Shown here one piece after another: positions 7,153 through 22,837 of a stretch of 22,837 nt of DNA; within the stretch, counting starts at the first letter, position 1, and every line of letters begins with the position of its first letter. The position numbers and the translations under genes are program-made. This DNA is from a virus: positions 1-22,837 of the IMG/VR virus record IMGVR_UViG_3300021959_000424, one strand, 5' to 3'. The notes beneath the pieces are model-generated. The model was not told where the DNA came from. It saw only the letters and a program-made list of their open reading frames with translations, and did no database searches.

Positions 7153-7590
7153 ATGGCAAACTTATATAATCAAAAGAAAGTAGCAGTAAACAAAGCATCT
7201 GTAGGTGATCAAACATCAAGTACATTCACGTACAAAGGATTTAGCAGTCAAAATGCTAAACAAGGTTTTAAACTTTATGATATTGATCTTGTTAAACAGG
7301 ATCTTATCAATCACTTTTATATTAAAAAAGGTGAAAAGTTACAAAATCCTGATTTTGGAACTATTATTTGGGATATGATATTTGAACCTTTTACTGAAGA
7401 AACAAAAAAATTAATTGCTGATGATGTAGAAACTATAGTGAACTATGATCCTAGAGTAGTAGTTGATAGTGTTTCGGTTGACAGTACAGAAATGGGTATG
7501 CGAATAGAAGCAAGTATTACATATTTGCCATTTAATGTAAGCGATAGAATGACATTTGATTTTGACAGAACAACATCAACAATAAAGTAA
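7153..7590 (+). CDS. 25: gp25 baseplate wedge subunit (TssE family)
   Basis: The 145-residue protein fits gp25 of T4 (132 aa), the small wedge component that helps anchor the first sheath ring and is related to TssE of type VI secretion systems. Visible family features are KKGEKLQNPDFGT (58-70), IIWDMIFEPFTEE (71-83) and the conserved core motif near residue 99. That motif reads D-P-R here (YDPRVV) where many gp25/TssE proteins have E-P-R. The C-terminus ends in beta-type sequence (ITYLPFNVSDRMTFDFDR). The ATG is three bases after the gene 5 stop, and GAGGAA at 7141-7146, inside the gene 5 end, is the ribosome site. Confidence 0.9.
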   Translation: MANLYNQKKVAVNKASVGDQTSSTFTYKGFSSQNAKQGFKLYDIDLVKQDLINHFYIKKGEKLQNPDFGTIIWDMIFEPFTEETKKLIADDVETIVNYDPRVVVDSVSVDSTEMGMRIEASITYLPFNVSDRMTFDFDRTTSTIK

Positions 7591-7634: not shown

Positions 7635-10600
7635 ATGAGCACTACATCAAGACAAAATAATTTAATACTTAATGAGGACTGGACTCGCATTTATCAGACG
7701 TTTCGTAACGCTGATTTCAAGTCTTATGACTTCGAGAACCTGCGTAGAGTTATCATTACCTACTTGCGTGAAAATTACCCAGAAGATTTTAATGATTATA
7801 TCGAATCATCAGAGTACCTAGCACTTATTGATGCCATTGCATTCCTTGGACAGAGTTTATCTTTTAGACTAGATCTTGCAAGTAGAGAAAATTTTATTGA
7901 ATTAGCAGAGCGTAAGGAAAGTGTTCTAAGAATTGCTAAGATGCTTTCTTATAATGCTAAACGTAATGTTCCTGCAAAAGGTCTTTTAAAGTTTGTTAGT
8001 GTTACTACATCAGAAGATGTTGTTGATAGCAACGGACGTAACCTAGCACAACAAACAGTTCGTTGGAACGATCCAACAAATACTAACTGGGCAGAACAGT
8101 TTATTCTTGTGTTGAACACCGCAATGAGTGACAATACAGAATTTGGTAGGAGCCAAGGTACTGCTACTATTCAAAGTATTCCGACAGAGCAGTATAGATT
8201 TAGATCTTTTTCAGCAGATGTTCCGATTTACTCCTTTAGTAAATCAGTCGCAGGTCGAAATATGGTGTTTGAATTAGTCAGCACTACATTTAAAGATGCA
8301 GAAGAAATTTATGAAGAATCACCAACTCCTGGAAACCAGTTAGGTTTTGTATATAGACAAGATGGTCAAGGACCAGGAAGTGCAAACACAGGGTTTTACT
8401 TACAATTTAAACAAGGTAGTTTAGAACTTGCAGATTTTAATATTGGTGTTCCTACTACAAATGAGCGTGTTGCAGTAGAAAGTCAAAATATTAATAATGA
8501 TGATGTTTGGTTGTACAATATTAATCCAAACGGATCACAAGGAACAGAGTGGTTAAAAGTTTCAAACCTTATTGGAAACAACATTGCATATAACAGTATT
8601 GTAGGCGGAAGTAGAGATATCTATGCTGTCAACACAAGAGAAAACGATAAAATTGATTTAGTATTTGCAGATGGAGTGTACGGAAATTTACCACAAGGTA
8701 ATTTTAGAACATATTATAGAGTAAGTAATGGATTAAGTTATACAATTTCTCCTAATGAGTTAAGAGGTATTAATATTACTGTACCATATCTTAACAAGGC
8801 AGGCGCAAGACATAATATTACTATTGGTTTAGCATTACAACAAAGTGTAAACAGTGCAGCACCAACAGAATCAATTGACAGTATCAGACAGAATGCACCT
8901 GCAAATTATTATACACAAAATAGAATGATTACAGGTGAAGATTATAATCTTGCTCCGTTGTCTACTTCACAAAATATTTTAAAGGTAAAATCAGTTAACA
9001 GAACTTCAAGCGGAATTTCACGTAATATTGATATTATTGATGCTAGTGGAAAATATGGTTCAATCAATGTATTCGGAGATGACGGGTACATCTATAAGCA
9101 GGAATCAGAAAATACATTAAGTTTTAAATTTACTAGTAGAACTGACATTATTAATTTTATTAAAAATAGAATAGAAAGTGTGTTTGCAGATACAGATGTT
9201 TATAATTTCTATATAACACGTTTTGAAAAGATACTATTTTCTGAAACTACAATTGAATGGAACAGTATCACTAATGATACTAATATCGGTACAGGATACT
9301 TTGTTAATAATATTGACCAAAGTTTACTTAAAGTAGGAACTTATGCAACTAATAACCTTAAGTTTTTGTTATCTGGTGCTAATCTTAAGTTTTTACCACC
9401 AGCAGGAAAAGCATTTAAGAATAGTGCTATTGTAGATATTAACGAAGATGATAGCGAACAAAGAAGTTACCTATGGACAAAAGTACAAAGTGTTGTAGGT
9501 GACGGTACTAACGCAGGCAGAGGAGTATTAACAACAGGACTAGGTCCGATTACATTCACTGATAATATTCCAACAGGCGCTATTGCAAACAGAATTGTTC
9601 CTAAATTTGTATCAGATATTAGTACTGCTATCGAAGCACAAATGACAAATATTATTTTTGCAAACTTAAACTTTGGTTTAAGGTACGATATTAATACAGC
9701 ACAGTGGAAAATTATTCAAGCAGAAAATTTAGATGTAACTTCTGCATTTGGTTTAGGTAAAGCGGGTGATACTACAAGTGAAAATCTTGATGCTAGTTGG
9801 ATAATTGCATTTGTTAAAGATAACGATCAGTATGTTGTTAGAATTAGAAAACTAGACTATGTGTTTGGTAGTGTTTCACAAAATAGATTTTATTTTGATA
9901 AAAATGACAAGGCCTATAATAACATTACAGGAAAACTTGAAAAAGATTCTGTTAGAGTTTTAGGTATTAATAAAACAAGTCAAGGAATTGGATCATTAGT
10001 TCAAGATTATTCTTTTGAAATTTCTGACACTATTAAATTTGATGATGGATACGAATCTACTAATGAAATTAAATTAGCATTTTCTGATAAAGATAGCGAT
10101 GGTGTTGTTGACGATCCGCAATCTTTTGAAAATATTGTAGGATCAGATTTAGATTTAAATTTCTTATTCTTCCAAGAAGTAACTGACGCATACGGTACAT
10201 CTGTTTTTAATCTTGTTGATCCAAGTGTTACAAACATTATTATTGCACAACGAGAATCGCAAGTTAATATTAATGACTATAATGACGGTCAACTAATTTA
10301 TTTTTATGATGACAATGAAGATAGAGTAAAAAGTGTAAACAAAGCAACTAACACACTACAACTTGAAACTTCGTATAAAGCAGAAATTGGAAGAAGAGAT
10401 CTTAAGTTCCAATATACACACGCAGCAAGTACTGACAGACGAATTGATCCAAGTGTAACTAATATTGTTGATATTTTTATTTTAACTAGATCATATGATA
10501 CTTCTTTTAGAAATTACCTTGCAGGAGCAGGAACACAACCTGCTGAACCAACGTCAGAAGATTTAAGAATATCATTTGGCTCGGGTCTTAATCAAATAAA

Positions 10601-11033
10601 AGCAATAAGCGATGAAATTATATATCATCCTGTAAAATATAAAGTGTTGTTTGGAACAACAGCAACACAACAAGTACAAGCACAATTTAAGGTTGTTAAA
10701 AATCCTAATAAAACTATTAATGACAACAACCTAAAAGTAAGAATTGTAAATGCAATTAATACTTTCTTTAGTATTAATAACTGGGATTTCGGAGATAGAT
10801 TTTATCTTAGTGAACTGACTGCATTTATTATTAATTCAGTATCTCCAGATGTTACTAATTTTGTAATCTTACCTAGAGATCCAGCACAAGTGTTTGGCAG
10901 TTTGTTTGAAATTCAAAGTAAGCCTGATGAAATTTTTGTAAGCGGAGCAACTGTAGATGATATCGAAATCGTATCCTCGATCACTGCTGCTGAAATTAGA
11001 GCAGGCACTGGAACAGTGGTGAGTGATACATAA
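7635..11033 (+). CDS. 6: gp6 baseplate wedge subunit, enlarged (1132 aa)
   Basis: gp6 forms the dimeric ring that links wedges (T4 660 aa; gpJ-like core). The N-terminus is diagnostic: LNEDWTRIYQTFRNADF, YLRENYPEDFNDYIESSEY, then AFLGQSLSFRLDLASRENFIELA and LSYNAKRNVPAKG within residues 1-120. A middle part, about 410-450, has RQNAPANYYTQNRMITGEDYN, usual in this family. The C-terminal core, about 1020-1100, has NPNKTINDNNLKVRIVNAIN, FGDRFYLSELTAFI and a final TAAEIRAG tail. Between these lie large extra beta-rich parts, including QWKIIQAENLD...LDASWIIAF at about 690-740 and an acidic DKDSDGVVDD loop at 818-827. The excess over T4 is about 470 residues. The ATG at 7635 follows AGGAATAGGA. The stop overlaps the next gene (TAATG). 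Confidence 0.88.
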   Translation: MSTTSRQNNLILNEDWTRIYQTFRNADFKSYDFENLRRVIITYLRENYPEDFNDYIESSEYLALIDAIAFLGQSLSFRLDLASRENFIELAERKESVLRIAKMLSYNAKRNVPAKGLLKFVSVTTSEDVVDSNGRNLAQQTVRWNDPTNTNWAEQFILVLNTAMSDNTEFGRSQGTATIQSIPTEQYRFRSFSADVPIYSFSKSVAGRNMVFELVSTTFKDAEEIYEESPTPGNQLGFVYRQDGQGPGSANTGFYLQFKQGSLELADFNIGVPTTNERVAVESQNINNDDVWLYNINPNGSQGTEWLKVSNLIGNNIAYNSIVGGSRDIYAVNTRENDKIDLVFADGVYGNLPQGNFRTYYRVSNGLSYTISPNELRGINITVPYLNKAGARHNITIGLALQQSVNSAAPTESIDSIRQNAPANYYTQNRMITGEDYNLAPLSTSQNILKVKSVNRTSSGISRNIDIIDASGKYGSINVFGDDGYIYKQESENTLSFKFTSRTDIINFIKNRIESVFADTDVYNFYITRFEKILFSETTIEWNSITNDTNIGTGYFVNNIDQSLLKVGTYATNNLKFLLSGANLKFLPPAGKAFKNSAIVDINEDDSEQRSYLWTKVQSVVGDGTNAGRGVLTTGLGPITFTDNIPTGAIANRIVPKFVSDISTAIEAQMTNIIFANLNFGLRYDINTAQWKIIQAENLDVTSAFGLGKAGDTTSENLDASWIIAFVKDNDQYVVRIRKLDYVFGSVSQNRFYFDKNDKAYNNITGKLEKDSVRVLGINKTSQGIGSLVQDYSFEISDTIKFDDGYESTNEIKLAFSDKDSDGVVDDPQSFENIVGSDLDLNFLFFQEVTDAYGTSVFNLVDPSVTNIIIAQRESQVNINDYNDGQLIYFYDDNEDRVKSVNKATNTLQLETSYKAEIGRRDLKFQYTHAASTDRRIDPSVTNIVDIFILTRSYDTSFRNYLAGAGTQPAEPTSEDLRISFGSGLNQIKAISDEIIYHPVKYKVLFGTTATQQVQAQFKVVKNPNKTINDNNLKVRIVNAINTFFSINNWDFGDRFYLSELTAFIINSVSPDVTNFVILPRDPAQVFGSLFEIQSKPDEIFVSGATVDDIEIVSSITAAEIRAGTGTVVSDT
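10086..10115 (+). other. Ca2+-binding-like loop DKDSDGVVDD in gp6
   Basis: Residues 818-827 of gp6 follow the D-x-D-x-D-G pattern of EF-hand, dockerin and thrombospondin type 3 loops. The flanking sequence does not show the paired helices of an EF-hand, so a stand-alone calcium loop between beta segments is more likely. The motif is short and could be chance in an Asp-rich protein. Confidence 0.4.
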
Positions 11034-14000
11034 TGGCAGATAAAAAAGTCTTCCCCAACAGCAATATTCCAATTAGAAAATCTTCAGAATTTTTACCTGA
11101 CGTTTTTAAAACTGAAACCAATAATAAATTTTTAGGGGGCGTTTTAGATCCTCTAATTCAACCTGGCGCAACAGATAAACTTACAGGGTATGTCGGTCGA
11201 CGTTACGGAAAAACTTACAATACTAAAGATATCTATCTTGATGATGACGATACATTACGTAGCAGGTATCAACTTGAACCAGGTGTAACTATTGAAAAAG
11301 ATAGAAAGGTAGAAGATTTTTATGATTATATTGATTTTAAAAATATTTTAAATTACTTTGGTAACTATAACGATCGTGACGATATTTTAAATAAACAAGA
11401 ACATTATTCTTGGAACCCTCCTATTGACTGGGACAAGTTTACAAACTATAGAGAATATTTTTGGGCACCCCAAGGTCCTCCATCTGTTCCTGTATACGGA
11501 CAGAACAGTGCAATAACATCTACATATAAAGTGTCTCCGGGTGTTAATAGTTGGATATTTACGCCTGATGGTGCAACTAATAGTCCTAACCTTAAATTAT
11601 ATAGAGGACAAACATACCGTTTTGAAGTTAACAGTCCGCTCGAAGGATTTATTATTAGAACAAACTACGATACAGGAAGTTTGCTTTATGATGCACGAAT
11701 TTCTTATTTTGTAGGTGACTATGCAATTTTTGATGATAAACTTTGGCGTGCCAAAGTTGATATCACACCAGCAGACGGAAGTACAATTAGTGTTGATTCG
11801 CAAGACTGGGAATTAGTAGATAATAACGCTGTACTAGAATCATTAACATACAATACCGGTATAATTAATAACGGAGCAAAAAGAGGTGTAGTAACATTTA
11901 CTGTGCCTTTAGATTCGCCTGATGTTTTATACTATCAAAGTGACGTCAATCCTAATAGACTAGGACAGTTTATAATTGGCGATATTCAAGATGCTACGTT
12001 TATCGATCCTACAAATGAGATTGTTGGTAAAAAAGATTATACAAGTGCTAACGGTATAAAACTTAGTAACGGACTAGTAATAGAATTTAGAGGCGAAGTA
12101 GCAGAAGAAAAGTATGCTCAAGGTACTTGGCTAGTTGAAGGTGTAGGTAAAGAAATTTCTTTAACAAGATTTACAGATCTTATTCCTCCAACAGTAACAA
12201 CCACTACTCCGGAAATTTTGTTTGACAATGAAGGATTTGATTCTCAGCCCTATGATGATGCTACACAGTTTCCAGGATCAAAAGATTATATTACAATCAA
12301 TAGAACAAGTAGAGATTTAAATCCGTGGAGTAGATATAATAGATGGTTTCATAGAACAGTCTTAGAGTATGCACATACTTTTAGAGGAGAAGACTTTGAT
12401 GCTAGTGAAGATACTAGAGCAAAACGTCCTATTATTGAATTCCATCCTAACATCCAACTGTTCAATCACGGCGGCCAAGCGAAACAAACAGTAGACTACA
12501 TTGATGACTTTACAACTGATATTTTCTCAAAAATAGAAGGAAGTACAGGTTACAGCGTTGATGGAGAGTTCTTGTTCGAAGGAGCAAGAGTACTTGTAAT
12601 TTCTGATACAGATAATTTAGCAAATAATAAAATTTACGAAGTTAAGTTTATCATACACAACGGTCGTAAACAAATTAATCTTAGAGAAACAGAAGATACA
12701 GTATCAACAGAAAATGAGTGTGTATTGGTTAGACGCGGCGCAGAAAATGCAGGACTAATGTACCATTTCAACGGATCCAAATGGATTGCGAGTCAACCTA
12801 AAACTTCAATAAACCAATATCCGTTATTTGATCTATATGATAAAGATGGGTATAGTTACGGCGATACTTCTGTGTATCCGGTTACTACATTTAATGGTTC
12901 GCCTATATTGAGTTATGCTGTAGGCACTGGCCGAACAGATCCTGAATTAGGGTTTAAATTAAAATATCAAAATATCAATAACGTAGGCGATATTACTTTT
13001 CACTGGAATTTAGATAGTGATACTTTTCAATATACACAACTTCAAAAAACTGTTTCAGTTCCAATAAGAGAAGGCTATTTAAAAATTGAAAACCAGTATG
13101 ATAACGGTTGGCTAAAAACAGATGAAAAATATTTACAGCCTATTATTAACACAGTTAAAATTGACACCGATGGTGTGATAGCATTAGACTGGAGTAACAC
13201 AATTGATTGGGCACAAACAACAAACAACTTAGAGGTGTGTTTTTATAGAAACGGTATAAAACTTAAAGACACATACACAAGAACACTATCTACTTTTGTT
13301 TTTGACAATACTGAATTTTCAGCAGGTGATGTTGTAACTATTAAAATTATTGATAATGTTTCTCCTATTACAGGTTATTATGAATTTCCTGTAGGATTAC
13401 AAAACAATCCACTTAATACAACAATTACTGAATTTACATTAGGACAAGCATCAGATCATTTAAGCACAGCACTAGAATTTAATGAAGAATTTGTTGGAGT
13501 TATTCCAGGTGTATCTAATCTAAGAGATTTGTCAGGATTTCAAGTTCACACTAAACGTTTTATGAAACATAGTGGTGTTGCAGCAGCATCTGTTGCATTA
13601 CTAAATGATAAAGATTACAACTTAATTAAATCTATTCAATATGCTAAAAAAGCCTACAGTGTTTTCAAAGATAGTTTTATTAAAAAAGCAAATGAAGTAG
13701 AGTTTGAAGATGTACCAGCAAATTTTGTAGATAGTATTATTGAAGAACTAACACGAACAAAAAGTGTAGCAAGTCCATTTGCCGATACTGATGTTATTGG
13801 TTCTGGCGCATTTACTTCAATTGATTATGAAGTTGACGATGTTGGTATTACAACCTTTGCGTTAAACAATAACTTTGATACAACAGTATTATCTAGAAAA
13901 GCAGTTTATGTTTATATTAATGATAGACAACTACTTTTAAATGCAGAATATACAATTGATGCTAATTTTAGTTTTGTTAGAATTAGTAAAGAATTGCTAA

Positions 14001-17000
14001 GAGGCGATAAGATACAAATTAGAGAATACGTATCAACTTCCTTTAGTTATATCCCTCCAACTCCTGCTTCATTAGGAATTTATAAGAAGTATACTCCTAA
14101 AAAGTTTTTAGATGATACTTATCGTGAACCTAAAGAAGTAATACAAGGCCACGATGGCAGTATTACAATTGCATACGGCGATTTCAGAGATGACTTATTA
14201 TTAGAACTAGAATATAGAATCTATAATAATATTAAAGAAAATTATGATGAAACTGTTTTTGATATTGATAGTATCATAGGTAGTTATTATTATAGAACAG
14301 ATTTTACAAAACAGCAATTTGACGACATTGTAAATCAAGAATTTTTAAAATGGGTTGCAGATACAAAATTAGGATATACTCTTAACGAATATTTTAAAGA
14401 AAATGAACCGTTTACATATACCTATAACGAAATGGCAAGTCCAGATGGTACCGAGTCGTTGCCTGGCTGGTGGAGAGGGGTATACAAGTATTATTATGAT
14501 ACAGACCGCCCACATTCACATCCTTGGGAATGCTTAGGCTTTACTGAAAAACCAACTTGGTGGGACGATGAATATGGAAAAGCCCCATATACAAGTGGCA
14601 ACTTATTATTATGGGAAGATATTAGAGACGGTATTGTTAGACAAGGCAATAGAGCAGGTACATATCCTCGTTATGCTAGAACAAGTATATTAAAACACAT
14701 TCCATCAGATGCTGACGGCGAACTTGTAGATCCTTTAACAAGTGGTTTAGCAACTAATTTTGTGTTATTTAATAATCAAGGCAGTTTTAAACTTGGAGAC
14801 ATCGGCCCTGTAGAATATGCTTGGCGTTCAAGTTCTGAATATCCATTTGCAGTTGCTATAGCAATGTGTTTAGTCAAACCATTTGAATTTATTATTAGTA
14901 ATTTTGATAGATCAAAATCTAAAAGAAATATTTTAAATCAAATTATCGATAAAACTACAGACACATTTATAACCCCTGCAGAATTAAAATTACCAGTTGC
15001 TGGAGAACTGCAAACATCAGGATTAGCAAACTATATAACTTCTTATATTAAAAGTAGAGGAATATCTGTAGCAGATGTACAAGAAGATTTACAAAATTTA
15101 AATGTTAGACTATCATCAAGACTAAGCGGATTTGTTGATCAAGAACAACAGAGATATGCAGTAGATAGTAAGAATCCTAAATCAACTTCTAGTAATTCTT
15201 TTATACCGCCTGAAAACTTTGATATTATTTTTGATGTAAGTTCTCCTATTTCCACTATTACATATAGCGGAATAATTTTTGAAAAAACAGCAAACGGTTG
15301 GACTGCATCAGGATATGATGATGTAAAACCGTACTTTGAATATTTTGAAGCAGTACCTAATCAGAAAGATCCTGTAATCAGTGTTGGCGGACTCAGCGAG
15401 TCTTTTACTGTTTGGGCGCCTGACACACGATTTGCAAACGGCACAATAGTAGATAATAAAGGAACATATTTTAGGGCAAAAGAGTCACATACTTCAACTG
15501 GGGAGTTTGATGAAACATTTTGGACCAAGTTGCCTGAACTTCCAGTAGTAGGAGCAACTACGGCACAGAGACGAAGAAACTTTAATACAACCGTAATAAA
15601 AAGATTATCATACGGAGAGCAATTTAGTTCTATCCAAGCAGTTGCAGACTTTTTACTAGGACACCAAGAATATCTTAAATCAGCAGGTTTAGTTTTTGAT
15701 AACTATGACGGGACTACACAGTCTGTACAAGACTGGACAACTGCATTAAAAGAGTTTATGTTTTGGACACAGCATAACTGGGCTCAAGGGTCATTACTTA
15801 CAGTTAGTCCAGGTGCACAAAAATTAACAATTGAAGTTGCAGTAGGTGTAGCAGACAATCTACTAGATGGATTTTATGAATACAATATATTAGGAAGCAA
15901 TGGTAGTCCTCTAGATACAAAAAATATTAATGTAGATAGATCATTCCAAAAATTTACAATTTCAACTGTTGATACCGAAGACGGAATTTATTACTTAAAA
16001 GTAAATCTTGTTCTTAAAGAGCACGTAACTATATTCGATGATAGAACAGTATTCAACGACGTAATATTTGATAAACCTAGTGGTTACAGACAAGAACGAA
16101 TTAGATCACAAGGTTTTAGAACAGTAGACTGGGACGGTGATTACACCAGCCCTGGCTTTATATTTGACAATGTTAATATAGTTGCTTGGCAACCTTTTAG
16201 AAATTATAAACTAGGCGATATTGTTCAGTATAGATCTAATAACTATACAAGTTTAATTACACATACAAGTGAGCAAGAGTTTAACAATGCTAACTGGACA
16301 GTTCTTGATTCAGAACCTACAAAACAACTTATTCCTAATTTTGATTATAGAATTAATCAAATTGAAGATTATTTTAATGTTGATAGTTCGGGACTAGGCA
16401 AGAGTCAAAGAGACCTTGCAAGACACACTGTTGGTTATCAAACAAGAACATATTTAGAATCTATTGCTGAAGATCCAACAACACAGTTTCAAATTTATCA
16501 AGGGTTTATTAGAGAAAAAGGAAGTAAGAATCCTATTTCAAAAATCTTTAATAAAAAAACTAATACAGATTCTGGAGTACAACTAGATGAACAATGGGCA
16601 TTTAAAGTTGGTACAATGGGAGGTGATGCACAATCTTATAATATTGAGTTATCACTAGACACTGAACAGTTTAAAGTAAATCCACAGCCTGTTGTAATTA
16701 CACCAGAAACAGGAAACTTTTTAGATAGATATTACAGAGTTAATCAAAGCAATTTTGATTATGCTCCTATTCCATATACTGATGATATTAATCCTGTTAC
16801 AGAAAATTATAAACCAACACAAACAGCAGGGTATGTAAAATTAGGACAAACAGAATATGTTATTAAACATTTTTCAGATATTAGTACAGAACTAGATGTA
16901 AACACAGTAAGCAATAACCAACATATTTGGATTACATTCAGTGGACCTACCTGGACAGTAAAAAGAATTAATGTAGCATTTGAACTTCCTATTATAGGAG

Positions 17001-20000
17001 TTACTGTGAATAATACAACAGTAACCATTGACTTTGGAAAGCGTCATAATTTTGCTGTTGATGAATATATTGGTATAAAAGACCTAGCAGATATTTCAGG
17101 GTTTTATCAAATTACTAGTATAACAAATAATACTATTACATATGAACTTGCTAAAAAAGCACCTAATGATGAATATGATACAAGTACAGCAGTTTATCCA
17201 ATTTATTTTACTGATGTAAGATATAATTCTTACAATGATCTAAGCGAAGAAGAAATTGCATTACTACAAAACAAATCAAAATTATGGATCGATCATAATG
17301 GTGAACTTAAATGGGAAGTTGTAGAGAAGAATAAAGTTTACGAAAGTAAACAAATTACAAACTACGGGTTATCAGAGCCTGTAAGAGTTGGCGAAAAGGT
17401 ATTATATAATCCTGCACTTAAACAGGTAATTGCAAGTGCAACTGCTACACCTAGAGTAATTGTTTATTTAGAAACTGTACAAGGTCTTTCAGTTAAGCAA
17501 ATTTTACAACCACCTGATGCAATGATTGACGGAAATATAAATTCATTTGGTTTAGAAATTGCTATTAGCCCAGACAGTAAATGGCTAGCAGTAGGCTCTC
17601 CTAAGGCCACTGGTATAAACAGTAACTATAGAGGAGAATACAATCCTTATGTTGCATACGGCCAAAACCAAATTGTACTATATTCAGGAAGATTATGGAA
17701 ATCAAAAATTGACATTGAGCCAGATGGCAGCTCAATTAACATTTATTCTCAAGATTGGGAACAAGTAAAAACTGTCGAAGCAGTTGACTTCGGTAGTAAC
17801 GATGGCGAAACACAAATGGGAAGTGTTACATTATATGAATGGACACTTAACCAATGGAACTATAAATCAACAATACTAAGTCCCCGCCAAGAAGCGTTTG
17901 AACATTTTGGACACGCTATTGCTTTAGGTAAAACCGACAACGGTTACACTATGGCAGTAAGTGCTCCAGGATCATTACACGCAAAAGGTAGAGTATGGTT
18001 ATACCACTATACTGAAGATACTGGTTGGGAAACTATTCAAAACACAAACTATGTCGGTGAATACAATCCAGGAGAGATATTCTTTGAAGGTCAAATTTCA
18101 AATGATGTCTTAACTGTAAAAGCATTAGGTGATAGTACACCTATTGCAGGTAAGTTAAAATCCGGAGCCAGTGTAATTGGCGAAGGTGTACTAGAAGGCA
18201 CATATATTCTGGAACAACTTGATTGGCCTGTTTCAGATGATGGAACTATCCATACCGAAAAAGGTGGAGTCGGAACTTATAGAGTTTCAAAAAATCATAC
18301 AGTACCTACCAATAGTGTTAGAATGGAGTCGAACTATTTTTATCCGTCGGGCTCAGTTGTTACCTATGGTGGTAAGTTTTGGCAAGCGCAGTATGACACC
18401 TATGGGGATGGTAGTACATTAAGCATAGACTCCAATGAGTGGTCGCAACTTGATGCAGTTGCCACTCAAGCATCGCTGCCACAAAGTCTTGCATTAGACG
18501 ACGATGGTTCTAGTTTGTTCACAGGTTTACTTACCGACGGACAAGTCAATGAATTAGTAATGAATGGACATAGATTTGGTTCATCATTGTCAATGAGTTA
18601 TGACGGTAAAGTGTTAGTTGTTGGTGCACCTGATGCAGATAATCAGTTTTTCCCTAACTATAAAGGTGTATGGAGACCAGATTATGAATATATTCAGGGA
18701 GATGTTGTAAAGTACCAAAATGCATATCACAGACTGTCTAATATTGGCCCATCGCAGGTGCCGCAGGATAGTACTATTAGAAGTTACAACGAAGATCCAA
18801 GTAACGGTTATCCTTGGGTAGATGCAGGTGATAGTTCTGCAAATATTACTGGTAAAATGTATATCTATAGAAAAGACACAGTTGGCAATTATTCACTAGT
18901 ACAAACAGTTGCCGCAGACAACTTAGATGATTTTAATGATTTAAATCAAGCACATCCAGACAAAATTGCTGCCGGCGATAAGTTCGGTTATGCTGTTGCG
19001 GTAGACTATTCAGGTAATAATATTGTTGTAAGTAGTCCGCAGGCAGATATTAACTATCAAAACCAAGGTAGTGCATATATCTTTGAATATAAAAATGATT
19101 CAAGTGTGTACGAATATCGTATTGTACAGAAACTAGAAAGTTTTGATAGATTCCCTAATGAATTTTTCGGCCAATCTATTTGTATTAGTCCGAACACTTC
19201 AATAATTGCTATTGGTGCTAACAATAGTCCTTATGTGCAGCCTACAATTTATGATTCATCACAAACAACATTTGATGAAAAACGAACAACATTTAAAAAC
19301 TTTGATGGGTTTACAGGTAGTGTGTATGTGTTCGAGAAAAAAGAACACACATATTATTTGTCAGAGAAACTTGATGCTGATTTATCCTTAAATGAATCAT
19401 TTGGTACATCAGTTAGTTGTGAAGAAAATGTAGTTGTAGTTGGTTCGCCAGAATTTATTGAGCCAGTAACTGAAGGCAACAATATTGTGTTTACCGGTAA
19501 CAAAGTTGGTATGGTTAGAATGTTTAAAAAACCAACCGGAGTAAGTCCGTTAACTGTTATTACTTCACAACCGCAGCACATAGATTTAGAACAAATTAAA
19601 CGTATTTCACTTTATAAGAAAAATGATGATGTTAAAATACAAGATTTAGAATTTTTTGATCCTGCTAAACTAAAAATAGTTAATAGAGCAGAGCAAGAAA
19701 TTACATATAAAGTTCCTTTTGATCCAGCAGTGTATACTGTTGGTAACGATGAAGTAGTCGTTGATCCAGATATTAGTTGGAACAATGGTAAAAATGTTGG
19801 TAAACTTTGGTGGAACATTGCAAATGCTAAATGGATTGATTATGAGCAAGGCGATATTGCTTATAGAACATCTAATTGGGGTGCTCAAGCAGTTGGTAGT
19901 ACTATAGACATTTACGAATGGGTAGAATCTAAACTATTACCTAGTGAATGGTCAGTACTTGCTGATACTGCCGAAGGCTTAAACTTAAATATTTCAGGAC

Positions 20001-22837
20001 AGCCGTTATATCCTGATGATACAGCATATGCTATTAAAGAAATATTCAACACAAATACAGGACTTGCAACAGAAACACGATATTCTTATTGGGTTAGAAA
20101 TAAAACAACAGTACCATCAAACGTTGTAGGAAGAACAATTAGTGCTTCTACAGTATCTAGTTTAATTAGATCACCAGGTACAGTAGGAAATACTTTAATT
20201 GCTATTATAGATAAAAATAAATTCTTATTCTACAATTACAAAAATGTTGTTTCAGAAGATACAAATATTCTTAATATAGAATATTACACAGATAAAGACA
20301 GTAAAAATGCTGTACATAACGAATATCAGTTGTTAACTGAAGGTATAGCAGGAAGTGTTCCTACAGAGAAACTAGAAACCAAATGGTTAGATAGTTTAAT
20401 TGGTTACGACTCTGTTGGTAATAGAGTTCCTGATACTAAATTGGCTACAAAGCAACGATACGGAATAAGTTTCCGCCCAAGACAAAGTATGTTTGTAGAT
20501 AAAAGAAAAATTCTACAAATATTAGTCGGTAATATTAATACAATTCTTAAAAAAGAAGCGTTTGCTGATACCATAAATTATAGTACACTTAATAGTGTTG
20601 ATCCAGCACCAAGCGAATTGTTAAAATTATATGATACAAAAGTTTCATTCTATAGCGATCTCGAAAATGTAGGTACTATCAGAGTTAAGAAAGCAACACT
20701 GTCAGTAAACATTATTGATAGTGAAATTAACAGTATTACAATTACAGATCCAGGATACGGATATAAAGTTGCACCTAATGTAGAATTTGAAGGTGACGGT
20801 ACTGGTGCTGTTGCTACAACAACAATTGATAACCAAGGAAGAATTTCTAGTGTTACAGTAGTATCAAGCGGTAAAAAATATAGTTATGCTATTGCAAAAG
20901 TAAGAAACTTCAGTGTACTTGTTGAAAATGATGATACAGCAAATAATTACTGGAGTGTTTATGCCTGGGATGATGTAAGACAGATTTTCTTTAGAAGTCA
21001 ATCACAAGCATTTGACACTACAAGATACTGGACCAAAGAAGATTGGTGGAAAGAAGGTTATGGCGTAACATCTAGAATTGTAAAAGAAATTTTAAGTGTA
21101 TACCAAGAACCGACTGTAGAATTACAACCTGGAGATTTACTTAGAATTAATGAATATGGTGCAGGTGGCTGGGCAGTATTTGAAAAACAAGAAGGCGAGC
21201 CTAATGGAATTTTATTATCTAACTATAAATTAGTTGGTAGAGAAAGAGGTACTATTGAGCTATCACAAGATTTATGGAATACACAAGTAAGCGGTATTGG
21301 ATTTGATATTGTTGATTCATTTGACGCCGGCTTATATGATAAAGAAGTTGCTATTGAATTAAGAAATATTTTAAAAGCAATTAAAGAAGAAGTATTTGTT
21401 GGCGATTACAGTAACGAATGGAATAAATTATTCTTTACAAGCATTAGATATGTATTCCAAGAACAAACCTATGTTGACTGGGCATTTAAAACTAGTTTTA
21501 TTAGTGCAATACACAATGTTGGTGCATTCAAAACTACACCAACATATAAAAATGACAGTCTTGAAGCGTACCTAGAATATATTAATGAGATTAAACCATA
21601 CAGAACTACAGTAAAAGAGTTTATTAGTAAGTATGACCAATTAGAAACAAGTTATACATCTACAACAGATTTTGATTTGCCTCCAGTTTATAGTATTAGA
21701 GAAGGCAAGATTATCAATGTTGACGAGAACAACGAATTAATTAATTCATATCCTTATACACAATGGCGTGATAATAAAGGATTTGGTATTACGTCAATAT
21801 TAATTAGTAATGCAGGCGCTGGTTACACAAGTGTTCCTAATATTATTATTGAAGGTAACGGAACAGGAGCAAAAGCAACTGCATATATCTCAAATGGTAA
21901 GGTAAGTGGAATAACTGTAACAGCACAAGGCAGCGGATATACACAAACCCCAACGGTAAGAATTGTTGGCGGCAATGGAAGTAATGCAAATGATGCAAAA
22001 GCAGTTGCTACACTAGGAAATAGCAAGGTAAGAACAAATAATATAACAGTTAAGTTTGATAGACTTGACAAAGTAGGAAGATTTACTGAATTTGATTTCG
22101 AACAAACATTTACAGCATCAGGTGCAAGTGCAGTATTTGAATTATCATATCCTGCAACAGTTGATAAGTCTAAAATATCAATACTACAAGATGGACAAAT
22201 TGTTCTAGATAGTGAATATAGAATTGTACTGTATAGACAAAAAATAGATTTAGAAAATGTTTTAAGATGTAGAATTATATTTGATCAAAATCCACAAGCA
22301 GGTAGTGTAATTAAAATTACATATTCTAAAAACGATGAAATACTTGATAGTGTTAATAGAATAAACAAATATTACACACCGGGCACAGGAATGTTAGGTA
22401 AAGAATTACACCAGTTAATGACAGGTATAGATTTTGGTGGAGTTCTTGTACAAGGTACAACATTCGATGTTACTGGAGGATGGGACGCACTTCCTTGGTT
22501 TACAGATAGTTGGGATAGTGTAGAAGCAGCAGCAGACTTTTATGTAGTTTGTGACGGAAGTACAAATTTTATAACACTTCCATATGCTCCTATAGAAGGT
22601 CAGGTAATAACAATTTATTTAAAACGTGCTGGACAAGAACGTTTGCCAACAATTGATCAATTACAATATTCACAAACAGTTGCAGAACCTCCAACGTTAC
22701 GTATTGACGATCCAAACTTTGGATCATACACACCAGCAATACCAGCAGTACCAGGTTCGCCAGCAATACCAGCAGTACCAGGCGTACCAGCAGATGCAGA
22801 ATACAACAATGGTGCAATTATTAATGTAGTTGGCAAC
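11033..22837 (+). CDS. 7: gp7-like giant baseplate wedge protein, open at the window end (at least 3935 aa)
   Basis: Reading in frame from the ATG at 11033 gives 3935 sense codons with no stop up to the last base; T4 gp7 is 1032 aa. In T4, gp7 starts wedge assembly with gp10 and meets gp8, gp6, gp53 and gp25. Family-like stretches are WLVEGVG (about 366-372), RDLNPWSRYNRWFHRTV (about 430-446), NLRDLSGFQVHTKRF, IPPTPASLG, VIQGHDGSI, PGWWRGVYKYYYDTDRPHSH (1144-1163), GPVEYAWRSSSEYPF, FIPPENF (1390-1396), EFMFWTQHNW (1574-1583) and GYRQERIRSQGF (1684-1695). About 2170-2810 is a FG-GAP-like propeller region with inserted modules. About 2930-3780 holds further marine-phage sequence (DYEQGDIAYR, VDWAFKTSFI, TDFDLPP, GMLGKELHQLMTGIDFGG). 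A Pro/Ala repeat starts at the window end. The ATG overlaps the gene 6 stop, with only a weak ribosome site (GGTGAGTG, 11018-11025), so coupling from gene 6 is likely. Whether all of it is one gp7 or a fusion with another virion protein cannot be decided here. Confidence 0.78.
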   Translation, partial: MADKKVFPNSNIPIRKSSEFLPDVFKTETNNKFLGGVLDPLIQPGATDKLTGYVGRRYGKTYNTKDIYLDDDDTLRSRYQLEPGVTIEKDRKVEDFYDYIDFKNILNYFGNYNDRDDILNKQEHYSWNPPIDWDKFTNYREYFWAPQGPPSVPVYGQNSAITSTYKVSPGVNSWIFTPDGATNSPNLKLYRGQTYRFEVNSPLEGFIIRTNYDTGSLLYDARISYFVGDYAIFDDKLWRAKVDITPADGSTISVDSQDWELVDNNAVLESLTYNTGIINNGAKRGVVTFTVPLDSPDVLYYQSDVNPNRLGQFIIGDIQDATFIDPTNEIVGKKDYTSANGIKLSNGLVIEFRGEVAEEKYAQGTWLVEGVGKEISLTRFTDLIPPTVTTTTPEILFDNEGFDSQPYDDATQFPGSKDYITINRTSRDLNPWSRYNRWFHRTVLEYAHTFRGEDFDASEDTRAKRPIIEFHPNIQLFNHGGQAKQTVDYIDDFTTDIFSKIEGSTGYSVDGEFLFEGARVLVISDTDNLANNKIYEVKFIIHNGRKQINLRETEDTVSTENECVLVRRGAENAGLMYHFNGSKWIASQPKTSINQYPLFDLYDKDGYSYGDTSVYPVTTFNGSPILSYAVGTGRTDPELGFKLKYQNINNVGDITFHWNLDSDTFQYTQLQKTVSVPIREGYLKIENQYDNGWLKTDEKYLQPIINTVKIDTDGVIALDWSNTIDWAQTTNNLEVCFYRNGIKLKDTYTRTLSTFVFDNTEFSAGDVVTIKIIDNVSPITGYYEFPVGLQNNPLNTTITEFTLGQASDHLSTALEFNEEFVGVIPGVSNLRDLSGFQVHTKRFMKHSGVAAASVALLNDKDYNLIKSIQYAKKAYSVFKDSFIKKANEVEFEDVPANFVDSIIEELTRTKSVASPFADTDVIGSGAFTSIDYEVDDVGITTFALNNNFDTTVLSRKAVYVYINDRQLLLNAEYTIDANFSFVRISKELLRGDKIQIREYVSTSFSYIPPTPASLGIYKKYTPKKFLDDTYREPKEVIQGHDGSITIAYGDFRDDLLLELEYRIYNNIKENYDETVFDIDSIIGSYYYRTDFTKQQFDDIVNQEFLKWVADTKLGYTLNEYFKENEPFTYTYNEMASPDGTESLPGWWRGVYKYYYDTDRPHSHPWECLGFTEKPTWWDDEYGKAPYTSGNLLLWEDIRDGIVRQGNRAGTYPRYARTSILKHIPSDADGELVDPLTSGLATNFVLFNNQGSFKLGDIGPVEYAWRSSSEYPFAVAIAMCLVKPFEFIISNFDRSKSKRNILNQIIDKTTDTFITPAELKLPVAGELQTSGLANYITSYIKSRGISVADVQEDLQNLNVRLSSRLSGFVDQEQQRYAVDSKNPKSTSSNSFIPPENFDIIFDVSSPISTITYSGIIFEKTANGWTASGYDDVKPYFEYFEAVPNQKDPVISVGGLSESFTVWAPDTRFANGTIVDNKGTYFRAKESHTSTGEFDETFWTKLPELPVVGATTAQRRRNFNTTVIKRLSYGEQFSSIQAVADFLLGHQEYLKSAGLVFDNYDGTTQSVQDWTTALKEFMFWTQHNWAQGSLLTVSPGAQKLTIEVAVGVADNLLDGFYEYNILGSNGSPLDTKNINVDRSFQKFTISTVDTEDGIYYLKVNLVLKEHVTIFDDRTVFNDVIFDKPSGYRQERIRSQGFRTVDWDGDYTSPGFIFDNVNIVAWQPFRNYKLGDIVQYRSNNYTSLITHTSEQEFNNANWTVLDSEPTKQLIPNFDYRINQIEDYFNVDSSGLGKSQRDLARHTVGYQTRTYLESIAEDPTTQFQIYQGFIREKGSKNPISKIFNKKTNTDSGVQLDEQWAFKVGTMGGDAQSYNIELSLDTEQFKVNPQPVVITPETGNFLDRYYRVNQSNFDYAPIPYTDDINPVTENYKPTQTAGYVKLGQTEYVIKHFSDISTELDVNTVSNNQHIWITFSGPTWTVKRINVAFELPIIGVTVNNTTVTIDFGKRHNFAVDEYIGIKDLADISGFYQITSITNNTITYELAKKAPNDEYDTSTAVYPIYFTDVRYNSYNDLSEEEIALLQNKSKLWIDHNGELKWEVVEKNKVYESKQITNYGLSEPVRVGEKVLYNPALKQVIASATATPRVIVYLETVQGLSVKQILQPPDAMIDGNINSFGLEIAISPDSKWLAVGSPKATGINSNYRGEYNPYVAYGQNQIVLYSGRLWKSKIDIEPDGSSINIYSQDWEQVKTVEAVDFGSNDGETQMGSVTLYEWTLNQWNYKSTILSPRQEAFEHFGHAIALGKTDNGYTMAVSAPGSLHAKGRVWLYHYTEDTGWETIQNTNYVGEYNPGEIFFEGQISNDVLTVKALGDSTPIAGKLKSGASVIGEGVLEGTYILEQLDWPVSDDGTIHTEKGGVGTYRVSKNHTVPTNSVRMESNYFYPSGSVVTYGGKFWQAQYDTYGDGSTLSIDSNEWSQLDAVATQASLPQSLALDDDGSSLFTGLLTDGQVNELVMNGHRFGSSLSMSYDGKVLVVGAPDADNQFFPNYKGVWRPDYEYIQGDVVKYQNAYHRLSNIGPSQVPQDSTIRSYNEDPSNGYPWVDAGDSSANITGKMYIYRKDTVGNYSLVQTVAADNLDDFNDLNQAHPDKIAAGDKFGYAVAVDYSGNNIVVSSPQADINYQNQGSAYIFEYKNDSSVYEYRIVQKLESFDRFPNEFFGQSICISPNTSIIAIGANNSPYVQPTIYDSSQTTFDEKRTTFKNFDGFTGSVYVFEKKEHTYYLSEKLDADLSLNESFGTSVSCEENVVVVGSPEFIEPVTEGNNIVFTGNKVGMVRMFKKPTGVSPLTVITSQPQHIDLEQIKRISLYKKNDDVKIQDLEFFDPAKLKIVNRAEQEITYKVPFDPAVYTVGNDEVVVDPDISWNNGKNVGKLWWNIANAKWIDYEQGDIAYRTSNWGAQAVGSTIDIYEWVESKLLPSEWSVLADTAEGLNLNISGQPLYPDDTAYAIKEIFNTNTGLATETRYSYWVRNKTTVPSNVVGRTISASTVSSLIRSPGTVGNTLIAIIDKNKFLFYNYKNVVSEDTNILNIEYYTDKDSKNAVHNEYQLLTEGIAGSVPTEKLETKWLDSLIGYDSVGNRVPDTKLATKQRYGISFRPRQSMFVDKRKILQILVGNINTILKKEAFADTINYSTLNSVDPAPSELLKLYDTKVSFYSDLENVGTIRVKKATLSVNIIDSEINSITITDPGYGYKVAPNVEFEGDGTGAVATTTIDNQGRISSVTVVSSGKKYSYAIAKVRNFSVLVENDDTANNYWSVYAWDDVRQIFFRSQSQAFDTTRYWTKEDWWKEGYGVTSRIVKEILSVYQEPTVELQPGDLLRINEYGAGGWAVFEKQEGEPNGILLSNYKLVGRERGTIELSQDLWNTQVSGIGFDIVDSFDAGLYDKEVAIELRNILKAIKEEVFVGDYSNEWNKLFFTSIRYVFQEQTYVDWAFKTSFISAIHNVGAFKTTPTYKNDSLEAYLEYINEIKPYRTTVKEFISKYDQLETSYTSTTDFDLPPVYSIREGKIINVDENNELINSYPYTQWRDNKGFGITSILISNAGAGYTSVPNIIIEGNGTGAKATAYISNGKVSGITVTAQGSGYTQTPTVRIVGGNGSNANDAKAVATLGNSKVRTNNITVKFDRLDKVGRFTEFDFEQTFTASGASAVFELSYPATVDKSKISILQDGQIVLDSEYRIVLYRQKIDLENVLRCRIIFDQNPQAGSVIKITYSKNDEILDSVNRINKYYTPGTGMLGKELHQLMTGIDFGGVLVQGTTFDVTGGWDALPWFTDSWDSVEAAADFYVVCDGSTNFITLPYAPIEGQVITIYLKRAGQERLPTIDQLQYSQTVAEPPTLRIDDPNFGSYTPAIPAVPGSPAIPAVPGVPADAEYNNGAIINVVGN
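11702..11821 (+). repeat. W/GD-type beta module, copy 1, in gp7-like protein
   Basis: The pattern is Y-F-V-G-D-Y-A-I-F, then KLWRAKVDI, then DGSTISVDSQDWELV. It is closely similar to the modules at 17642 and 18335 (shared L-W-x-x-K-x-D-I-x-P and S-Q-D-W-E-x-V). The spacing G-D-x-x-x-Y...W recalls small carbohydrate-binding modules of the CBM5/12 kind. Confidence 0.65.
13235..13360 (+). repeat. Tail-fibre-like beta module, copy 1
   Basis: The pattern is V-C-F-Y-R-N-G-I-K-L-K-D-T-Y, then T-F-V-F-D-N, then A-G-D-V-V-T-I-K-I-I-D. This 'xVxxNGxxLxxxxYx...F...GDxIxIxxY' arrangement recurs at 13904 and 22175 and is common in phage fibre and baseplate adhesins. Confidence 0.5.
13904..14029 (+). repeat. 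Tail-fibre-like beta module, copy 2
   Basis: The pattern is V-Y-V-Y-I-N-D-R-Q-L-L-L-N-A-E-Y-T-I, then F-V-R-I, then R-G-D-K-I-Q-I-R-E-Y. It has the same layout as the copies at 13235 and 22175. Confidence 0.55.
15413..15532 (+). repeat. W/GD-type beta module, copy 2
   Basis: The pattern is W-A-P-D-T-R-F-A-N-G-T-I-V, then G-T-Y-F-R-A-K-E-S-H-T-S, then F-W-T-K-L. It pairs best with the copy at 16187 (shared H-T-S...F...W-T-x-L). Confidence 0.6.
16187..16306 (+). repeat. W/GD-type beta module, copy 3
   Basis: The pattern is W-Q-P-F-R-N-Y-K-L-G-D-I-V-Q-Y, then N-N-Y-T-S-L, then H-T-S-E-Q-E-F, then N-W-T-V-L. Length and anchors are the same as copy 2. Confidence 0.65.
17642..17767 (+). repeat. 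W/GD-type beta module, copy 4, inserted between propeller blades 1 and 2
   Basis: The pattern is V-A-Y-G-Q-N-Q-I-V-L-Y, then RLWKSKIDIEPDGS, then SQDWEQV. It aligns with copy 1 with a one-residue gap across about 25 residues. Confidence 0.65.
18335..18451 (+). repeat. W/GD-type beta module, copy 5, inserted between propeller blades 2 and 3
   Basis: The pattern is Y-F-Y-P-S-G-S-V-V-T-Y, then KFWQAQYDT, then GDGSTLSIDSNEWSQL. It is similar to copies 1 and 4 (DGST.S.DS..W). Confidence 0.65.
18671..18829 (+). repeat. W/GD-type beta module, copy 6, inserted between propeller blades 3 and 4
   Basis: The pattern is W-R-P-D-Y-E-Y-I-Q-G-D-V-V-K-Y, then A-Y-H-R-L, then a longer polar loop, then P-W-V-D-A-G. 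It has a clear start motif like copy 3 and a diverged second half. Confidence 0.55.
20735..20881 (+). repeat. Glycine-rich beta repeat, copy 1
   Basis: The pattern is I-T-I-T-D-P-G-Y-G-Y, then P-N-V-E-F-E-G-D-G-T-G-A, then I-S-S-V-T-V-V-S-S-G-K-K-Y. This 'GxGYxxxPxVxxxGxGxGA' unit recurs at 21797. Confidence 0.6.
21797..22021 (+). repeat. Glycine-rich beta repeat, copy 2, with two half-units
   Basis: A first unit reads I-S-N-A-G-A-G-Y-T-S-V-P-N, then I-E-G-N-G-T-G-A-K-A. A second follows at once: V-T-A-Q-G-S-G-Y-T-Q-T-P-T-V-R-I-V-G-G-N-G. It resembles copy 1 and would form a short stacked beta structure. Confidence 0.6.
22175..22330 (+). repeat. Tail-fibre-like beta module, copy 3
   Basis: The pattern is I-S-I-L-Q-D-G-Q-I-V-L-D-S-E-Y-R-I, then R-C-R-I-I-F, then Q-A-G-S-V-I-K-I-T-Y. 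It has the same layout as the copies at 13235 and 13904. Confidence 0.55.
22733..22786 (+). repeat. 27-bp tandem repeat encoding PAIPAVPGx, two units plus start of a third
   Basis: Units 22733-22759 and 22760-22786 share their first 23 bases exactly and differ only in the last four. A third start (CCAGCA) follows at 22787. They encode PAIPAVPGS, PAIPAVPGV and PA. The Pro/Ala/Val/Gly composition suggests an extended or collagen-like linker. Near-identity in DNA, unlike the other repeats of this gene, points to recent duplication or slippage. Confidence 0.85.

Follow-up and report, generated by a model that had tools for sequence, protein, structure and literature searches.

A predicted seven-bladed FG-GAP propeller with exchangeable modules inside a giant baseplate-region protein of an uncultured phage clade

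The giant open reading frame and its genomic setting

The stretch of DNA analysed here (the window), an IMG/VR virus record of 22,837 bases, runs out within a giant open reading frame (ORF), whose product is about 4,675-4,680 aa long in complete relatives (Table 1). The genes 5' of this ORF are gp53-, gp5-, gp25- and gp6-like, and the ORF starts on the final base of the gp6-like gene. T4 gp7, which is likewise encoded directly after gp6, adjoins its neighbour similarly closely. The sequence-only reading of this DNA had described the giant protein as a gp7-type wedge subunit, and its gene does directly follow the gp25- and gp6-like genes, but profile comparison revealed no homology with T4 gp7 (hhalign probability 0.2-0.3% with 12- and 21-sequence profiles). 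T4 gp7 also differs in length, at 1,032 aa versus about 4,675 aa for the giant protein. Because the profile comparison was negative, "gp7-type" serves below as a positional label only. A match to phrog_438 that the C-terminal part of the giant ORF has in common with T4 gp8 was set aside as a shared repeat, the aligned profile ranges being different.

Since the record of the homologue from phage PA5oct carries an ESI-MS/MS note, we take the giant protein to be present in the virion. Two further observations concern the ends of the window. On its - strand, positions 221-1063 hold a 280-aa ORF, and PA5oct has an annotated late sigma factor at the same place and on the same strand. Within the giant ORF, residues 3585-3660 (nt about 21785-22012) contain repeats of the GAGYTSVPNIIIEGNGTGA type. 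These repeats hit several PHROGs (phrog_460, phrog_1922) and align at multiple places in the homologues from Atu_ph07 and Phosso; being shared, they can lead annotation astray.

Table 1. Coordinates of the genes, predicted blades and candidate modules in the window.
Feature	Position	Strand	Basis or remark
gp25-like baseplate wedge protein	7153..7590	+	PF04965, 1.3e-9
gp6-like baseplate wedge protein	7635..11033	+	phrog_219, 3.7e-22, also the PHROG of T4 gp6; directly upstream of the giant ORF, one-base overlap
Giant virion-protein ORF	11033..22837	+	last ORF of the window, 3' open, 3,935 aa; phrog_10938, virion structural protein
Conserved N-terminal part, residues 1-1890	11033..16702	+	common to cultured jumbo phages
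Beta-hairpin segment SKLWIDH..WEVVEK..ESKQI, residues 2078-2110	17264..17362	+	directly 5' of the propeller; strands in model; conserved in alignment A2 of 60 relatives
Blade 0, residues 2111-2165	17363..17527	+	four predicted strands, no FG motif
Blade 1	17528..17899	+	FG motif at residue 2172; CBM5/12-like module 1 in B-C loop
CBM5/12-like module 1, residues 2199-2245	17627..17767	+	local HMM; B-C loop of blade 1
Blade 2	17900..18040	+	FG motif at residue 2292
Variable module, residues 2337-2431	18041..18325	+	between blades 2 and 3; relatives lack it or have a replacement; modelled with low confidence
CBM5/12-like module 2, residues 2433-2474	18329..18454	+	local HMM; D-A loop between blades 2 and 3
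Blade 3	18569..18967	+	FG motif at residue 2515; CBM5/12-like module 3 in B-C loop
CBM5/12-like module 3, residues 2543-2596	18659..18820	+	local HMM; B-C loop of blade 3
Blade 4	18968..19159	+	FG motif at residue 2651; best FG-GAP_2 match
Blade 5	19160..19393	+	FG motif at residue 2712
Blade 6	19394..19567	+	FG motif at residue 2790
Conserved C-terminal flank, residues 2846-3180	19568..20572	+	common to cultured jumbo phages

Predicted fold of residues 2111-2845

Prediction supports well that a region at about 17363-19567 encodes a seven-bladed FG-GAP beta-propeller of the integrin-alpha type, about 730 residues long. The FG-GAP-type blade motif occurs once in each of blades 1 to 6 and is otherwise absent from the 3,935 residues, while shuffled versions of the whole ORF gave a mean count of 0.02 and a maximum of 1. 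Six copies had been counted before, and six were recovered, all within residues 2172-2808; the motif as literally written is too narrow and matches once, but a slightly looser version matches six times. The stretch originally flagged, 17546-19456, corresponds to these same residues in frame within the giant ORF and takes in the six FG motifs, but it missed a seventh blade just upstream, blade 0, whose lack of an FG motif explains why six were counted. The Pfam family FG-GAP_2 (PF14312) matched the whole protein at E = 2.9e-18 (66.2 bits against a curated cut-off of 23) and residues 2060-2850 at E = 1.5e-23, and it matched 60/60 relatives at E <= 0.001.

An AlphaFold2 model of residues 2060-2850, built from alignment A2 of 60 relatives, had a mean pLDDT of 80 and a pTM of 0.80, its weak part being the insert between blades 2 and 3, and a compact homologue of 555 aa (L077) was modelled with a pLDDT of 88 and a pTM of 0.88. 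Both models have seven blades, mostly with four strands each. In Foldseek searches of the PDB, integrin-alpha chains made up all 50 matches listed for the compact homologue, with a TM-score of 0.63 on the 440-residue alpha-V and alpha-5 chains, and most of the 50 listed for the window model, the others being other multi-blade propellers. The structure prediction and Foldseek comparison proposed by the sequence-only reading thus bear out its integrin-alpha-type propeller of six or seven blades, with seven as the modelled number.

The ring appears closed in the predicted models, as judged from strand order and TM-scores. This dependence leaves some room for the alternative that there is no propeller, the repeats being coincidental or arranged as an open solenoid, but we consider it very improbable given the confident models, the consistent seven-bladed integrin matches, the Pfam match and the motif statistics. 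The predicted fold shares with the N-terminal propeller of integrin alpha subunits its FG-GAP repeats and seven four-stranded blades, and differs in sitting inside a phage tail protein, in its CBM5/12-like inserts and in lacking calcium loops of the DxDxDG type. Such loops are a feature of several integrin blades and are not required for the FG-GAP fold; the pattern D.[DN].[DNS]G had no match in the window and scattered single or double matches in relatives.

The propeller gave no tblastn match at 1e-5 among 50,697 phage records, with weak ones only at E <= 10. A single-sequence search of the PDB returned designed SAKe propellers, which we rejected as matching through repeats only, and a profile search returned a CBM-like stretch of Anabaena All3316/Cis13, a chitinase and a weak match to integrin alpha-M. 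FG-GAP repeats are found in other tailed phages in stand-alone proteins, namely S-TIM5 gp054, CDS 22 of the uncultured siphophage LR797314, which likewise sits within a tail-gene region, and XYS97267.1 of the Sinorhizobium phage Phosso, but these are separate proteins rather than part of a baseplate wedge protein. The Phosso protein (L018:3226-13239) is itself giant, with 27 FG-GAP_2 stretches (E 4e-173), and is not encoded at the gp7 position. A search of open-access literature turned up nothing relevant on FG-GAP in phage baseplates; what is new here is a known fold in a new setting.

Inserted modules, the variable slot and its distribution

Three features went unmentioned in the sequence-only reading: three CBM5/12-like modules within the propeller, a module-swapping site at blade 2, and a variable slot in an otherwise conserved giant protein. 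With a local HMM, the ORF shows six CBM5/12-like modules, of which three lie inside the propeller; the CBM5/12 profile scored 43.3 bits on the whole ORF against a cut-off of 26.2, and 27.2 bits on residues 2060-2850 alone. From their sequences, these modules are candidate sugar- or surface-binding modules. The three within the propeller lie in B-C and D-A loops, and the face bearing these loops is the ligand-carrying face in integrins.

A module of 95 residues shares the D-A loop between blades 2 and 3 with CBM5/12-like module 2; some relatives (L019, L024) lack it and others (L020-L030) have a replacement. Blade 2 accepts modules elsewhere too: its C-D hairpin holds insertions of several types and up to about 190 residues in other relatives, and in L097 a swapped module enters its A-B loop. 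The B-C/D-A face shows the wider variation in loop length (median SD 4.3, versus 0.1 on the opposite face; p = 0.025), but blade 2 departs from this pattern, so the idea that all inserts lie on the ligand face holds in part only. Mean identity to the window is 52% for the blade strands, 60% for the N-terminal flank and 54% for the C-terminal flank, compared with 40% for CBM5/12-like module 1, and the variable module that follows blade 2 is for the most part missing, or else 25% identical. Since conservation of the strands comes close to that of the flanks while the modules diverge, the disc looks like a conserved scaffold whose attachments vary.

Giant proteins of the same phrog_10938 type are encoded at the same position after gp6 in five cultured jumbo phages, PA5oct, Atu_ph07, Phosso, SCTP-2 and GAP32, and the window is 23-38% identical to them over the N-terminal part and 27-32% over the C-terminal flank. 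In these five, however, the slot is occupied by 174-1,530 aa of different sequence that gave no FG-GAP match. By sequence comparison, then, the predicted propeller fills a variable slot within an otherwise conserved giant protein. CBM5/12 matches are present in 4/5 of the cultured giant proteins, and CBM5/12-like modules also occur in the conserved N-terminal part of relatives that have no propeller. The SCTP-2 slot (L015:17521-19149) has by eye a LamG or jelly-roll-type look, with no Pfam match at E <= 0.05.

The propeller was present in 80/80 of the best IMG/VR relatives, picked by the C-terminal flank. In a tree of 146 rows, built by a quick method from the flanks alone and from a sample drawn by sequence patterns rather than as a census, the profile label assigned a propeller to 100 rows, all within one clade of 105. 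Four of the five unlabelled clade members proved by reading and Pfam to have divergent propellers, which brings the count to 104/105. In the fifth, L254 (7775-10033), the slot holds a GDSL-like lipase/acylhydrolase (PF13472, 6.8e-10) in place of the propeller. After this correction the tree needs two changes of propeller state, or one if L254 is left out. Two other clade members carry a YHYH domain in the slot region alongside FG-GAP repeats (L224:6056-10018 and L239:6068-10021; PF14240, 5.5e-37 and 2.5e-38, respectively). All 5/5 cultured phages placed in the tree fall outside the propeller clade.

Clade contigs reach 355 kb (L208, 354,959 bases, with a giant ORF of 6,292 aa), which indicates that at least some members are jumbo phages. 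Across 16 contigs searched, all FG-GAP_2 matches listed lie in ORFs of 2,884-6,292 aa. A cyanophage identity was considered and dropped, as no psbA-type gene was found in 16 contigs, which may be fragments. A scan of GTDB bacterial and archaeal genomes with one pattern found no relative.

Proposed role of the disc

Our working model is that a conserved blade disc, built into the giant baseplate protein at the place of T4's gp7, carries three CBM5/12-like modules in its B-C and D-A loops and a further module exchanged from phage to phage at blade 2. One such disc per wedge would project from the baseplate and bring sugar- or surface-binding modules into contact with the host envelope as the phage adsorbs. 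We rate the chances as about even that the disc presents host-surface-facing modules from each wedge in this way, its copy per wedge, exposure on the baseplate and adsorption role being inferred. Since the propeller marks one uncultured clade and is absent from the cultured relatives, it may be this clade's way of touching hosts.

The main competing explanation is that the propeller has a structural role, bracing the wedge or serving as an anchor for separate fibres or other baseplate proteins, with the inserts making protein-protein contacts inside the virion. Several results are consistent with such a brace: the blade strands are almost as conserved as the flanks, when receptor-contacting surfaces often evolve fast; the propeller is retained across nearly the whole clade; a tail-collar/fibre-like gene lies just 3' of the giant ORF in L007; and the CBM5/12-like modules found elsewhere in the protein, including the N-terminal part of propeller-less relatives, suggest that these modules may be structural. 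Some blade 2 modules also sit in the C-D loop, or the A-B loop in L097, off the integrin ligand face, and the absence of DxDxDG-type loops from the window likewise counts against host-surface contact. Nevertheless, module swapping at blade 2 and replacement of the disc by a hydrolase would be unusual for an internal brace, and the cultured relatives dispense with the propeller. The swapping, the CBM-type modules and the hydrolase in one member's slot lead us to favour host-surface contact, and we regard a brace as a plausible but less probable role.

The propeller could instead be a lineage-specific decoration with no dedicated role, kept since its loss would disturb a giant multidomain protein. 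Cultured relatives are viable with 174-1,530 other residues in the slot, as this would predict, but near-universal retention while propeller identity falls to about 31%, with all six FG glycines kept at >=90% in alignment A2, makes it improbable.

Extending the host-surface reading beyond this clade is more tentative. The slot could serve jumbo phages in general as a docking site for host surfaces. In one large uncultured clade the disc fixed there would then act as a plug board on which binding or enzymatic modules are interchanged (CBM5/12-like, YHYH, and in one member a GDSL hydrolase replacing the disc itself), so that adsorption specificity would reside partly in the baseplate and not in the fibres only. 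If the proposed role is correct, the disc would be a concrete host-contact candidate for a large clade of giant phages that includes none of the five tree-placed isolates, and on a contractile-tail baseplate, a fold familiar chiefly from adhesion receptors of animals would be the scaffold for modules that can be swapped. The modular slot could then be scanned across jumbo phages to relate module type to host.
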